From contig DUFP01000007.1 of assembly GCA_013331795.1 (NCBI GenBank), positions 4,977 to 53,776 on the forward strand: a DNA stretch of 48,800 bases. Reading direction: 5' to 3'. The DNA is from Nanobdellota archaeon. Lineage in GTDB: Archaea; Nanobdellota; Nanobdellia; SCGC-AAA011-G17; GW2011-AR17. The notes under the pieces are model-generated. The model saw nothing but the letters and a program-made list of their open reading frames with translations, had not been told where the DNA came from and ran no database searches. Position 1 is the first letter of the stretch; each line of letters starts with the position of its first letter. A program made the translations under genes and the position numbers. Shown piece after piece: positions 11,298 to 48,527 of this stretch.

Positions 11298-11319
11298 CCG
11301 AAAATCTTCCGGATTTTCT
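11298..11319 (+). promoter_or_regulatory. Repeated promoter-proximal element, copy 1
   Basis: The 15-mer CCGAAAATCTTCCGG followed by ATTTTCT occurs here and, exactly, at 47534 and 48296. It contains a hairpin-capable inverted repeat, AAAATC and GATTTT separated by TTCCG. Thirteen bases after the CCGG lies AAACTTTTTTAAG, a TATA-like stretch, and then the small gene at 11351. Position and repetition suggest an operator or upstream activator site. Confidence 0.7.
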
Positions 11320-11350
11320 ATCTAAAACTTTTTTAAGAAGTTTTCTTTAA

Positions 11351-11518
11351 ATGGAAGAAGTGATAGAAAGCCTAATAAACCAAAAAGTAATTTTTGACAG
11401 TACAGGACAAAGGTATATACTCCCTTTTCTCCTCATAACAATCCTACTTATCATAGGAAGAATAATTTATGAAAAAAATTATCTCAAGAATAACAGTGGA
11501 AGTGCTAGGATCCCCTAA
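11351..11518 (+). CDS. 55-residue membrane protein (putative)
   Basis: The frame starts MEEVIESLINQK and holds one clear membrane helix (about residues 23-40, RYILPFLLITILLIIGRIIY) with a short polar tail. It overlaps the following gene by 50 bases in another frame, which is long, so either the tail is tolerated or the true product is shorter. The repeated element at 11298 lies directly upstream, as it does before another small membrane protein at 48357. No strong ribosome binding site is visible. Moderate support only. Confidence 0.45.
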   Translation: MEEVIESLINQKVIFDSTGQRYILPFLLITILLIIGRIIYEKNYLKNNSGSARIP

Positions 11519-11885
11519 GGATCATGTAGAAAAAGCACTACAACAAGTAATAAAAAAACTAAGAGAAGATGAAAAAGGCATTAAAGTTCTCAAAGTAGAA
11601 GAATTTGAATGTAAACAAATGGATAATAAACTTTGGAACACATTTGCTGATATAGAATTTGAAACATTTGAACTAAAGAGAGTATTAGATGTATGCTACG
11701 ATTACATGCCCTCAACAATTGAAATTCTAGAACCAGCAGGTCTAGAGATAGATACGAATGATATCGCAGATGTATTCAATGACTTTCTCACCCATCTACA
11801 TAAATATTCTATGGTTTTAAAGAAATTACAAACAGAAAATATCTACATGATGAAAGAATTAGAAAAAATAAAAGAAAAAAAATAA
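11469..11885 (+). CDS. Unknown protein, 138 residues, ferredoxin-like fold pattern
   Basis: An N-terminal beta-alpha-beta pattern (ISRITVEVLG, a helix with KDHVEKALQQVIKKL, then IKVLKVEEFEC) is followed by further strands and a long C-terminal helix (about residues 108-138) with coiled-coil character and a lysine-rich end. It resembles small conserved proteins seen in DPANN archaea, but I do not know a function. It follows, and partly overlaps, the 55-residue frame downstream of the repeated element at 11298. A GGAAG site lies upstream of the ATG. Confidence 0.65.
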   Translation: MKKIISRITVEVLGSPKDHVEKALQQVIKKLREDEKGIKVLKVEEFECKQMDNKLWNTFADIEFETFELKRVLDVCYDYMPSTIEILEPAGLEIDTNDIADVFNDFLTHLHKYSMVLKKLQTENIYMMKELEKIKEKK

Positions 11886-43423: not shown

Positions 43424-46400
43424 TTATACCCACGTACTTAAATCAATATAATATTCTGCTTGATTATCATAAGCATCTTCACAGATCACATAATACTGCG
43501 CAGCTTCAAGATTTGCTTCATGCTCTGTTTCTCCTTCACCAGTCATAGCAATACCCTCACCAAAAGTAAAAGGATCAGGAGCATATTCACACGCTGCATT
43601 TTCATTCGTAACAAAAAGAAGCACAGAATAAACAGTATCAACATATAAAGATGCAATTTCTGGTCCATCATTATCAATCTCAACAGCAAAGTTTGTACTA
43701 TTTGTTGCCCTGTTTCCTGCGATATCTTGGCAACGCACATAATACGTATACTCTCCCTCTCCAAGTGTCAAAGGCTGACTGTGGAAGCTAGCATTTGTTG
43801 TAAGGAATTGTGCCATGCTAGTATAATCAACATCTTCAAGGTTGTACCCACAAATTGCTTTTCCGAATTCTGCTCCACCATCTGTCTCTACTTCTAAACT
43901 CACATTAAAATCATACAAAGTTTCAGAAGGAAGAAGTTGTGTAATCTCTAATGGAGATTCCGTTTGTTTTGTAGTAAATTTAAAACTATCCTCATTCACA
44001 TTACCAGATTGATCCATACATTTAAAGTAAAAAGTATTTATTTCTCTCTCTGCAACACCAGTAAGTGTTGTTGCACATGCATACGTTCCATAATATGCAG
44101 AGCTTTGTTCTGTACTGGAATCCACACAACTCATACTGTTGCTCATAAATTCATAGCTTGTTTCATTGCTATTCCAACGGCAATCTGCAGGTTCATTGGT
44201 ATACAAGCTAAAAGAAGTCTCACTTGCATTGTAAGGCATATATGCACCATTATTTATAGAAGTATATTTCACTTCAGGAGGAGTGAGATCTGGCGTCGTA
44301 TCCACAGTAAATCGAATAAAATAATCTCTTTCATTTGCATTTCCATTTGAATCAGCACATCGGATATAAATTGTATGTATGCCTTGAGTAAGAGCAACAA
44401 CTTCTTCACTTGTCACTTCATCACCAAGAGAGAAAGTAAGTGCATGATCATAGGTATAAATACCAGCACCAAAAGTATTTGCCATAGCATCATATTCGAC
44501 ACCAACTTCAGAACTATAATGACAAAGTGCAGGCTCATCTGTTTCAATCGCAAAAGTAACAGGGGTAAAAGCAGGAATAAGTTCATTAATTTCATATCCC
44601 TTATCTCCTTCTTCCTCAGTTTCAGTAATTGTAAGACTCTCACTCAATGCTTCTTTTTGTGGAGTAATGTGAGGAGAATTCACATCATTAACATAAAGGG
44701 AAACACATGTTTCATTGCTTGTACCTTCATTCACAAGATCACAGCTTGCTCCAAGAGATCGGCACTTATATTCAGAGCAAGGTGCATATTGATCATTACA
44801 TAATTCACAATTTTTGCCACCAGTAGGAGGCTGCCATAAATTACAATCAGCAGTATAAGCTACTGTAGTCTCATTTTCATTCGCATATTCTACAACGAGA
44901 TACACAACAGTGATAACAGTGACCCAATTTGCTACTTTTGTCACAACACCTTTTGCTTGTCCGCCAAACAAAGTTGTTGGCAAAGGAAGAGCCCCTTCAA
45001 CAAAACATCCGCCACTATCAAGGATTTTATCCATTACTAAACCCTGACCTTTTTCAGCAACAGTATCTTCAACGGAAAACTGAGGCACTTCTGGTGCTTG
45101 GGCTACCGTTTGAATATCCTCACATTCTATAGGAGGACTCCCAGCTCTAGCCTTGGTTTGAACTCCATCAATAGGCCCATTTTGTTTAGAACAAGCCTCA
45201 TAACCTCCTCTAACACATTTATAATAATATTCATCAGTTCCATCACCTAAATTATAAGAAGCATCACATTTTCCTTTATCTGTTAAAGCAGTATCAGCTG
45301 TAGTTGTATCATTAGCAGTTGCAGCTCCTGTAGTATTTGTTTTTGTAGAAGGAGCTGCAGGACAACAATACTTATCTTCATTCTCTGCACTATTACAATA
45401 CTTTTCTTTCACACCAGTATTTCCTTTTGCACAAGAACAACTATATCCTTTCGTCTCAGCACTGTCTCCACAAGTATCTATTTTTTGTTCCGATGCAGCT
45501 TTTTTTGCAGCATCTTCAGTCGCATAAGCAAAAGCTGACCTTGCTGTTGCACTCGCACCTTTGGCGGCAGCAGCCTTCGCACACTCACTGCCACCCACAC
45601 CATCCTTACCAGCACCCACAGCATTACTCACACCACCAACAATAACAGAAGCAATGGCAACATAAGTTACAGGATTTTTCCACACATTAGGACTATTAAA
45701 TCCATAAAGATCCTCACCTTCATCTTTTTCATCAACATTCACAAGATAATCCCAAGATCCAATATCCTTTGTTTCTAAATCATCAAAATCAAAAAAGTAT
45801 TCTTCATCAAACATACTGCTTCGAAATCCTTCAAAGCCAGCTTCACCAACATAATTATAATATGCACCACAATCTCCCTGTGCTTTACAAAAAGTATTTT
45901 GATCAACAAGCCAATCCCTGCTCTTGCATCCATCAGGGCTTTCTCCTGTAACTTGCCAAGCATCCACAGGAGGTGTCTGCCCACCAAAAAGTCTGCTCCA
46001 TCCACCAATTCTATAGCTCACTGTACATGCCGTCGAAGCAACACTGCATTCTTTTGCTGTCGCTGCTTCTACTTCTGTATCAGAAGAAGAACCTTCACCC
46101 CAAAATTTTAATCCTGGAGGAACTTGTGACAAGCAAACACCATAAGGAGTATCATCAGCAGAAGAAGAGAAACTAAACTCTAAAGGAGTATTCTCACTTT
46201 CCTTCCAAAAACAATCTCGTAAATCTTCATTCACACAGCAATCATATCGTTCAGATAAACTTTCAGGATCATTACAAGCATTGCAATCATTTCTATTCTC
46301 TCGGCATGCGGCTTCTACATATTCTCCATCTCCAAGATACAAGCCTTCTAAATTACCCAGCACTTCATTGGTTAATACACCATTCATACAAAGTTGTTCT

Positions 46401-47455
46401 CGATAATCAGTACAAGGCTCAACAATTTCTTCTCCATTAATACAAAGATGGCGATAATGTCGTGAACCTACTGCATCTAAACCTTCCCCTGGTCGAGAAT
46501 CATACACACACCAGGATTCTCCATTCCTTCTTTCCTGTCCAGAAAGTGGACTTGCACTATTTTCATAGGTTTCTTCACAGCTTAAATCAATGCAAGTATA
46601 ATCACCATCATCCATAACATTATCTACATCAGCCTCGCAAATCATACCTTGGGAATAATCACAATTACCGCAGTTTTTGTCATACGCATCAGAAGCAGTA
46701 CAAGAATCTTCTTCCTCTAGTACATATCCATTATTATAAGAAACTCGCTCATCAGAAGAATAAATATTTTCTCTATTTCCGCAAGAATCATACCAATATA
46801 CTTTTCCCTCATAGCACCCTGTATATTGTTGTTTCGCACATTCTGTAGAAAGCAAATCATTGGAACAAAGTATGCCCTCATGAAATCCTTCTACAGTAAA
46901 ATTCGCTCCTACCACAGGAGACACAACAGTACAACTTTCTCTTGTTTCAAACACAGCGCTTGAACCAGAAACACAACATCCAAAGTCTAAATTTTTTACA
47001 GAATTTAAACAAGCACTTTCCGTTTCAATCGTATCGTCAAAAGAAACAGAAGCTTCTTCATATGCACTTCCAACACTCTTACATTTTACTTCAGTCACAA
47101 AAAAAGCTTGATCAGCAATCACACAGCATCCTTTGTTACACTGATCTATTGCACAGGCTGAAGAATCACTCCAGCTAAAATCTTCCTCTGCTCCACATGT
47201 TGCACGAGGAGTATTTTGATAGCAGTTCCCTTCGTCAGAAGAATAACAACAGCCAACTTGGCAGAAAGAAGTCTGCTCACAAGAGGTATAACTGCTCAAA
47301 TAATTTTCATCACAAGAACTTTCATCGGTGTATTGACACCAGTTGCCTTCAGTATCCTTTTCGCAACAAGCAGTAATTCCTAAAACTGGAGAAAGAAAGA
47401 ATATATTAGCAAGAATAATAACCAGTATACAAAATAAGATAAAACCTCTTTTCAT
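43424..47455 (-). CDS. Giant Cys-rich surface protein heading the pilin operon
   Basis: 1343 residues. A signal-like N-terminal helix (about 5-25) leads to many Cys modules with CC pairs (ITACCEKD, QVGCCYSS, NKGCCVIAD, DFGCCVSG; the first 160 residues hold four). The middle has two hydrophobic stretches (about residue 600 VTYVAIASVIVGGVSNAVG and about 850 WVTVITVVYLVVEYA), so it may cross or lie in the membrane, and further Cys modules. The last 400 residues hold about four Ig-like repeats with pattern C-x-Y/W ... F/Y-x-x-M ... C-x-D-x-x-G-N. It may be a tip or base protein for the pilins encoded after it. Function is inferred. Confidence 0.7.
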   Translation of the reverse strand: MKRGFILFCILVIILANIFFLSPVLGITACCEKDTEGNWCQYTDESSCDENYLSSYTSCEQTSFCQVGCCYSSDEGNCYQNTPRATCGAEEDFSWSDSSACAIDQCNKGCCVIADQAFFVTEVKCKSVGSAYEEASVSFDDTIETESACLNSVKNLDFGCCVSGSSAVFETRESCTVVSPVVGANFTVEGFHEGILCSNDLLSTECAKQQYTGCYEGKVYWYDSCGNRENIYSSDERVSYNNGYVLEEEDSCTASDAYDKNCGNCDYSQGMICEADVDNVMDDGDYTCIDLSCEETYENSASPLSGQERRNGESWCVYDSRPGEGLDAVGSRHYRHLCINGEEIVEPCTDYREQLCMNGVLTNEVLGNLEGLYLGDGEYVEAACRENRNDCNACNDPESLSERYDCCVNEDLRDCFWKESENTPLEFSFSSSADDTPYGVCLSQVPPGLKFWGEGSSSDTEVEAATAKECSVASTACTVSYRIGGWSRLFGGQTPPVDAWQVTGESPDGCKSRDWLVDQNTFCKAQGDCGAYYNYVGEAGFEGFRSSMFDEEYFFDFDDLETKDIGSWDYLVNVDEKDEGEDLYGFNSPNVWKNPVTYVAIASVIVGGVSNAVGAGKDGVGGSECAKAAAAKGASATARSAFAYATEDAAKKAASEQKIDTCGDSAETKGYSCSCAKGNTGVKEKYCNSAENEDKYCCPAAPSTKTNTTGAATANDTTTADTALTDKGKCDASYNLGDGTDEYYYKCVRGGYEACSKQNGPIDGVQTKARAGSPPIECEDIQTVAQAPEVPQFSVEDTVAEKGQGLVMDKILDSGGCFVEGALPLPTTLFGGQAKGVVTKVANWVTVITVVYLVVEYANENETTVAYTADCNLWQPPTGGKNCELCNDQYAPCSEYKCRSLGASCDLVNEGTSNETCVSLYVNDVNSPHITPQKEALSESLTITETEEEGDKGYEINELIPAFTPVTFAIETDEPALCHYSSEVGVEYDAMANTFGAGIYTYDHALTFSLGDEVTSEEVVALTQGIHTIYIRCADSNGNANERDYFIRFTVDTTPDLTPPEVKYTSINNGAYMPYNASETSFSLYTNEPADCRWNSNETSYEFMSNSMSCVDSSTEQSSAYYGTYACATTLTGVAEREINTFYFKCMDQSGNVNEDSFKFTTKQTESPLEITQLLPSETLYDFNVSLEVETDGGAEFGKAICGYNLEDVDYTSMAQFLTTNASFHSQPLTLGEGEYTYYVRCQDIAGNRATNSTNFAVEIDNDGPEIASLYVDTVYSVLLFVTNENAACEYAPDPFTFGEGIAMTGEGETEHEANLEAAQYYVICEDAYDNQAEYYIDLSTWV

Positions 47456-47533: not shown

Positions 47534-47556
47534 CCGAAAATCTTCCGGATTTTTCT
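47534..47556 (+). promoter_or_regulatory. Repeated promoter-proximal element, copy 2
   Basis: CCGAAAATCTTCCGG followed by ATTTTTCT, identical over 15 bases to copies at 11298 and 48296. Twelve bases after its CCGG begins AAAGCTTTATG, a TATA-like stretch; another, TTTTAAATAAA, lies just before the HEPN gene start at 47605. Confidence 0.7.
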
Positions 47557-47604
47557 AATAAAGCTTTATGAATCCAAAATGTTTTAAATAAAAAAGAATA
47601 CAAT

Positions 47605-47991
47605 ATGGATATGCGAAAAGAAAGTGAACATTGGCTTCTTCAAGGAAAAGAAGAATTAGAAACAGCAAAAGCTTCTTTTGAAATGAAGAAATGGTTTGCA
47701 GTTGCATTTTGGTGCCAGCAAGCAGCAGAAAAAGCATTGAAAGCAGCTTTTATCGAAAAGAAAAAAGAATCCCCAGGAACAACACATTCATTAACATTTT
47801 TAGGAAGAGAATTAAATATCCCCACAGAGCTTTGGAATAGTTTACGAGATTTGACAAAAGAATATTACCTTTCAAGATATCCTGATGCAAGTGAAGACCT
47901 CCCTTATAAAATGTATACAAAAAATGATGCAGATAAATATATTCAAGATTGTGAGAAGATTGTAAAATGGGCAGAGTCACAAACAAAATAG
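47605..47991 (+). CDS. HEPN-domain protein of a HEPN/MNT pair
   Basis: 128 residues, all helical: ESEHWLLQGKEELETAKASF, then the conserved KKWFAVAFWCQQAAEKALKA and a C-terminal LTKEYYLSRYPD region. This is the COG2250-type HEPN architecture, which pairs with minimal nucleotidyltransferases. The RX4-6H ribonuclease motif of toxic HEPN proteins is not apparent, so nuclease activity is doubtful. The repeated element at 47534 lies upstream. It overlaps the nucleotidyltransferase gene by 25 bases. Confidence 0.85.
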   Translation: MDMRKESEHWLLQGKEELETAKASFEMKKWFAVAFWCQQAAEKALKAAFIEKKKESPGTTHSLTFLGRELNIPTELWNSLRDLTKEYYLSRYPDASEDLPYKMYTKNDADKYIQDCEKIVKWAESQTK

Positions 47992-48290
47992 TCCTAAAAG
48001 AACTAGAAAGAGTAAAAAAAGAACTTTCTAAGAAGTATAAAATCCAAAAAATGCTTCTTTTTGGCTCAAGGGCAAGAGGAGATTATAAATTAACCAGTGA
48101 TGTAGACCTTATTGTTATTTCTAAAGACTTTAAAAAATTATCATTTCGAGAAAGACCAAATGATTTTTTAGATACATGGATACTCCCAATAGATTTTGAG
48201 GTAATCTGTTACACTCCTGAAGAATTTCTTAGAAAGAAAAAAGAATATGGAATAGTAAAACAAGCCGCAAAAGAAGGACAAAAGATATAG
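47967..48290 (+). CDS. Minimal nucleotidyltransferase (MNT) partner
   Basis: 107 residues. The polymerase-beta motif LLFGSRARGDYKLTSDVDLIVIS gives the GSxxRG loop and the DVD metal pair (about residues 32-50); a third Asp/Glu is in IDFEVICY. In known HEPN/MNT modules the MNT adds AMP or similar groups to the HEPN protein, or acts as an antitoxin. All catalytic residues look intact. The overlap with the HEPN gene shows coupled translation. Confidence 0.88.
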   Translation: MGRVTNKIVLKELERVKKELSKKYKIQKMLLFGSRARGDYKLTSDVDLIVISKDFKKLSFRERPNDFLDTWILPIDFEVICYTPEEFLRKKKEYGIVKQAAKEGQKI

Positions 48291-48295
48291 AATTT

Positions 48296-48318
48296 CCGAA
48301 AATCTTCCGGTTTTTTCT
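48296..48318 (+). promoter_or_regulatory. Repeated promoter-proximal element, copy 3
   Basis: CCGAAAATCTTCCGG followed by TTTTTTCT. It lies five bases after the MNT stop. Twelve bases after the CCGG begins AAAGTTTTATTAAAAG, TATA-like, and the gene start at 48357 follows with an AGGAG site. The first base after CCGG differs from the other copies, which weakens the inverted repeat by one pair. Confidence 0.7.
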
Positions 48319-48356
48319 GAGAAAGTTTTATTAAAAGAAATTCCTTAGGAGAAAAG

Positions 48357-48527
48357 ATGAAACAAAAAGCAAAATATATTTTAGCAGTCGCAGGAGTCAC
48401 AGGTACAATTTTTGGAATAGGCATAGCCATTCCAGGATTTATGCAAAACTTGTACACTCCAGCAATTATAGGGACAATTTTAATATTTGCAGGCCTAGTA
48501 ACATTTGCAATTTCTTTCGGAGAATAA
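48357..48527 (+). CDS. 56-residue membrane protein
   Basis: Begins MKQKAKYILAVAGVTGT and has two hydrophobic segments (about 8-26 and 34-53) joined by a short polar turn with PGFMQNLYTP. It is preceded by TTAGGAG as ribosome binding site and the repeated element at 48296. The stop is one base before the start of the next small membrane protein. Not recognised. Confidence 0.65.
   Translation: MKQKAKYILAVAGVTGTIFGIGIAIPGFMQNLYTPAIIGTILIFAGLVTFAISFGE

Follow-up and report, generated by a model that had tools for sequence, protein, structure and literature searches.

A 15-bp palindrome placed in front of promoters in the genome of a Woesearchaeota-like archaeon is, with a probability that we put at roughly three in four, the upstream activating site of a regulon read by one putative dimeric regulator. 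It occupies the position directly before the BRE, a place at which archaeal activators bind. The window, that is, the whole stretch of DNA that was analysed (48,800 nucleotides), is located within contig C21 of a genome of 974,666 bp (G000; 41 contigs, 34% GC), in which a simple codon-usage caller delineated 1024 genes with approximate edges.

Sequence and copies of the element

Pattern matching in the window placed CCGAAAATCTTCCGG exactly at positions 11298, 47534 and 48296, each time on the plus strand, as the original prediction had stated. With up to three mismatches to this 15-mer, the window holds four matches, against a mean of 0.63 (maximum 3) in shuffled sequence. The inverted repeat AAAATC/GATTTT, which had been proposed along with these copies, was wrong: the true arms are CCGGAA and TTCCGG around a central ATC. 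When the pattern was relaxed genome-wide, the full element emerged as a 15-bp palindrome, [C/T]CGRAAATCTT[C/T]CGG, with CCGGAA-ATC-TTCCGG as its best form. The best copies are perfect palindromes, and the three copies of the window carry one mismatch to this form, A for G at position 4.

The pattern [CT]CG[AG]AAATCTT[CT]CGG has 18 copies without mismatches in G000 and 21 with at most one, and the reversed pattern, used as a control, has none with at most one mismatch; at two mismatches this control climbs to 16 copies, hence that level was not relied on alone. Called genes span 86% of the genome, and 20 of the 21 copies are non-coding although non-coding DNA makes up 13.9% of it (binomial p ~1e-16), so that random scatter over coding and intergenic DNA is not seen. 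Iterating a PWM at a low threshold led to drift towards a coding pattern, and this approach was abandoned.

Promoter geometry and the loci of the window

Promoter copies in G000 share one orientation relative to the promoter, and the position of the element immediately upstream of the BRE is constrained. In 15 of 19 proximal copies, exactly 16 bases separate the element from the best TATA-like octamer, and a TATA match of at least 7/8 lies no more than one base from this offset in 17 of the 19, against 4.65% of random non-coding positions. A multi-genome alignment of 113 non-redundant proximal sites, anchored on the element alone, revealed an A-rich BRE (AAA) at +12 to +14 and TTTATTAA at +17 to +24, with the offset of 16 in 64 of the 113 sites. 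The first ATG of the open reading frame is found 45-46 bases past the element at 28 of 57 sites (mode 46), which forms a peak about 26 bases from the TATA centre. This is the usual archaeal distance from TATA to transcription start; leaderless transcripts are therefore predicted, with the element at about -61 to -47. That copies are enriched at constant spacing to TATA boxes and to start codons, in this genome and in its relatives, is in line with what had been proposed for a regulon. A second copy lies 20 bp upstream at C6, C29, C11, L021, L126 and L128 and 30 bp upstream at C8, L244 and L250, spacings that equal two and three helical turns, respectively.

All three copies of the window are followed by the TATA-like stretch previously noticed, at the identical offset of 16 bases. 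Copy 1 (11298..11312, plus strand) stands in a promoter context: the BRE/TATA sequence AAAAC-TTTTTTAA occupies 11324..11336, with the TATA at 11329, and transcription is predicted from the leaderless mode to start near 11359. This promoter probably drives a gene for a 138-aa protein (11469..11885, plus strand), which has a homologue in genome G036 and no match in a Pfam search. A 55-aa open reading frame on the same strand begins at 11351, about 8 bases before the point where transcription is predicted to start.

Copy 2 (47534..47548, plus strand) precedes AAAGC-TTTATGAA at 47560..47572, with the TATA at 47565 and a predicted transcription start near 47595. Downstream on the same strand lie the two genes of a HEPN/MNT pair, the toxin being a HEPN-domain protein (47605..47991; PF05168, E 2.9e-26), for which a leader of about 10 bases is predicted, and the antitoxin an MNT nucleotidyltransferase (47967..48290; PF01909, E 9e-13). 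On the other side of copy 2, a gene for a 1343-aa protein (43424..47455, minus strand) is divergent from the element, which thus does not serve as its terminator.

Copy 3 (48296..48310, plus strand) is followed by AAAGT-TTTATTAA at 48322..48334 (TATA at 48327). Transcription is predicted to start at 48357, the A of an ATG placed 46 bases past the element, which is the modal distance. The gene that begins there (48357..48527, plus strand) encodes a predicted membrane protein of 56 aa without a Pfam match. Its orthologue in G002 also keeps the element, and no HEPN/MNT pair immediately precedes it there; copies 2 and 3 hence appear to be independent units.

Downstream genes and distribution among relatives

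About 20 transcription units in G000 share the site, and the genes that follow it are unrelated in sequence. Pfam searches assigned a number of them to toxin-antitoxin (TA) families, namely VapB/MazE antitoxins with PIN toxins, PemK/MazF, HEPN with nucleotidyltransferase, HicB, DUF4258 and PBECR-like proteins. Other downstream families are C5 DNA methylase, IS200 Y1 transposase, TnpB-like OrfB, ORF6N, MCM, LTD, OB-fold and PLD. A promoter-type element within 450 bp upstream, always at offset 16, was found for 10 of 26 PIN TA genes of G000, G002 and G036 (long PIN-ATPases left out), compared with 22 of all 1024 genes of G000 (2%; p ~8e-11), a background taken from G000 only while most of the PIN genes are in G002. 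Among HEPN genes, the element was present at one of seven, the case in the window itself. As a control, 30 random size-matched small operon-first genes were inspected: the 10 scanned with Pfam included no TA family, and a few of the other 20 were judged by eye to be TA or IS genes. Considering this control, the TA excess among small genes is smaller than the PIN comparison suggests.

A small TA-toxin-like family of about 105 aa with the motif HAHFRL..EAQR was observed at L019:1140-1454 (minus strand), L115:2091-2402 (plus strand) and L161; in G000 a DUF2283-like gene follows it. The genes at L019 and L115 carry the element, in G000 and G036, and their proteins had no Pfam or NCBIfam match; the NCBIfam search of the small toxins of unknown family gave no family name. 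Putatively structured leaders were noted at C8:9285-9389, C18 near 23,800 (minus strand) and C30 near 15,050 of G000 and at L244, L250 and L128 of G002. Three of these loci contain, downstream of the element promoter, a tRNA-Leu-like RNA with an intron-like insert and no normal acceptor stem, and the C8 leader scored 25.9 bits against the Rfam tRNA model (model positions 7-64), which is under the cut-off. Three have in common a later TAGCGAGAGCTATAGGAGG-like segment ahead of the start codon. The leaders look like paralogous structured 5' leaders.

Copies with at most one mismatch occur in 18 of the 103 genomes of the order, compared with a single control match in all of them. In this order-wide scan, G002 has 25 copies, G036 17, G000 14 and G030 7, and the others have 1-4. 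Promoter-type sites with the right TATA are carried by G000, G002, G003, G016, G017, G021, G031, G036, G044, G085 and G087 and, outside the order, by G105 and G136; the single matches in G001, G005 and G015 are not promoter-like. The distribution is patchy across several families of the order and the two outside genomes. The sibling species G001 and G003-G006 contain at most one copy each, though most genes are shared.

At several promoters the element is kept between genomes: in front of the LTD protein in G000, G002, G003 and G036 (four genomes, two families), of the membrane OB-fold protein in G000, G017 and G021 (three genera, two families), and of MCM and the 56-aa protein in G000 and G002 (two species). 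PBECR-like toxin genes have it in G002, G031 and G036, where the family assignment relies on a Pfam match for the G036 protein and on sequence resemblance for the other two.

Nature of the site, its reader and its meaning

The element would most naturally be read by a dimeric DNA-binding protein. In the mechanism that we propose, the candidate regulator would bind the palindrome, as cooperative dimers at tandem sites, and would assist the loading of TBP/TFB at the promoter. Leaderless mRNAs of TA modules, of MCM, of extracellular nucleic-acid-handling proteins and of a few mobile or restriction genes would then be switched together. The original prediction of a regulon stood with respect to the fixed distances, the scarcity of coding copies and the lack of a longer mobile repeat, but not with respect to its inverted repeat, and the perfect palindrome of the best copies, the helically phased tandems and the TA-rich regulon are features that it did not contain.

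By analogy, the element would belong to the archaeal upstream activating sites. Archaeal Lrp-type sites (Ptr2, LysM, Ss-LrpB) are imperfect palindromes of 13-17 bp with an AT-rich centre, located in a constrained position just upstream of the BRE, and further copies lie two or three turns of the helix away on the upstream side (PMC2995911). The 15-bp palindrome with its centre AAATCTT and its tandems 20 and 30 bp apart resembles these activator sites in size and centre, BRE-proximal position and tandem spacing (PMC2995911); it differs in being much less degenerate, in its sequence, in serving about 20 promoters and in having a reader that is only a candidate. The UV-inducible hexanucleotide A(N)TTTC of Sulfolobales lies just upstream of BRE/TATA in many unrelated genes and is essential for promoter activity (PMC5817253). 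It is likewise a cis site near BRE/TATA common to many unrelated genes, but it is non-palindromic, 6 bp long, placed at -44 to -39 and found in another phylum. In the Methanococcus fla promoter, activator sites for EarA are repeated directly in front of the BRE (PMC5512572), an arrangement that the element shares; they are, however, 6-bp sites of one operon with a different protein and sequence. Anti-defence genes of archaeal viruses have a common early-gene promoter sequence (PMC11065993), again one regulatory sequence for many unrelated defence-related genes, which belongs to the core BRE/TATA region, whereas the element is a separate upstream palindrome, chromosomal and absent from IMG/VR contigs.

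Several observations speak against an activating site: siblings G001 and G003-G006 have few or no copies, most copies in G030, G099 and G100 have a different layout, and the BRE/TATA sequences look strong. Some archaeal activators act at weak promoters.

A rather unlikely alternative is an operator: a repressor dimer beside the BRE would hold down the expression of TA and other accessory genes, and a signal would release it. In TA modules, a palindromic operator is usually bound by a repressor, and the regulon has many genes that do harm when over-expressed; yet in no case does the site overlap the TATA, the BRE or the transcription start. TA autoregulatory operators are each specific to their own antitoxin. 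The same element stands before VapBC, MazF/PemK, HicB, HEPN-MNT, PBECR and non-TA genes, so that unrelated antitoxins have the site in common and ordinary TA autoregulation was rejected. Strict spacing to the TATA is, moreover, what contact with TBP/TFB would be expected to produce, as known activators show (PMC2995911, PMC5512572, PMC5817253).

We consider it improbable that the palindrome is a general strong-promoter or chromatin element, UP-element-like and read by an abundant constitutive DNA-binding protein. It does precede core genes (MCM and one ribosomal-protein promoter in G036), and the wHTH protein g503, universal and highly conserved, would be conceivable as this reader. The element is, however, restricted to about 4% of operon-first genes, most ribosomal promoters are without it, and siblings with the same core genes and with g503 at 92-97% identity have few or no copies.

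That the element is the end or a regulatory part of a mobile element, its copies travelling along, appears very improbable. The IS200 and TnpB genes among the downstream genes and the patchy distribution would fit such an origin, but flanks beyond BRE/TATA and downstream genes are unrelated between sites, so that no longer mobile repeat is seen and mobility as the sole explanation is contradicted; core genes are preceded as well, and 2.9 million viral contigs (IMG/VR) contain no match. Some of the copies are likely to have been transferred horizontally with TA modules that carried their own promoter. An RNA hairpin or intrinsic terminator of the upstream gene (CCGGAA-AUC-UUCCGG plus a U-run) is hardly credible: a 6-bp hairpin followed by T5-6 is possible in the best copies, but upstream genes are codirectional in 10 and divergent in 8 of 19 cases (background 136 to 202), positions 4/12 show no pairing covariation (A-C 19 vs A-T 3), and the distance to the downstream TATA and ATG is fixed.

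The Lrp/AsnC protein g689 (C27:9523-9987) is a candidate for the regulator of the element, which we treat as a weak lead on account of its weak association with the element and the Lrp-like architecture of the site. Its orthologue is present in 9 of 11 genomes with promoter-type sites and in 37 of 92 others (p 0.011, uncorrected for phylogeny). Against it, g689 is absent from G085 and present in siblings having few or no sites, its recognition helix is just as well conserved in genomes that do not have the element, and its own gene is not preceded by the element. The form CCGGAAATCTTCCGG was named as a probe for binding assays.

Two other proteins were considered and set aside. The 98-aa winged-helix protein g503 (C20:202-474) is 81% identical to its G036 homologue; homologues (L292-L321) occur in 94 of the 103 genomes of the order, single-copy in most and mostly at 70-97% identity, and such universality within the order makes it uninformative for the identity of the regulator. 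Its promoter is without the element and carries a different sequence conserved in the family, AACCACTNNNCAATAGCTACA. The wHTH family of g886 (C39:2640-2993; about 115 aa, not recognised by Pfam) adjoins TA genes and element sites, but it is a multi-copy accessory family, with up to 11 copies per genome, and shows no association with the element (12/18 vs 47/85, p 0.44).

Neither the 15-mer nor its variants had an exact-text match in open-access papers, and no described regulon was found in the papers searched on regulation in Woesearchaeota, a very diverse group of uncultured DPANN archaea. A single element serving this many unrelated TA modules, in a DPANN archaeon with a reduced genome, is unusual. 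A broader proposal, which we offer tentatively and regard as clearly less likely than not, is that a single regulator in Woesearchaeota would hold under common control unrelated TA modules, genes of restriction and of transposons, the helicase MCM and proteins that handle nucleic acids outside the cell (LTD, OB-fold, PLD and a possible thermonuclease). Such a switch might constitute the reaction of a DPANN archaeon to foreign DNA or to stress on its DNA; TA modules that are newly acquired would be drawn into it repeatedly, by gaining the 15-bp site.

The analysis provides for Woesearchaeota a precise cis element, together with a list of the genes that follow it and the predicted starts of transcription. 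It ties many unrelated TA modules to a single putative switch, a link that is relevant to when TA modules are expressed in archaea, and the fixed geometry allows the element to be used in such genomes as a probe for stable RNAs and for genes that are small or unannotated.
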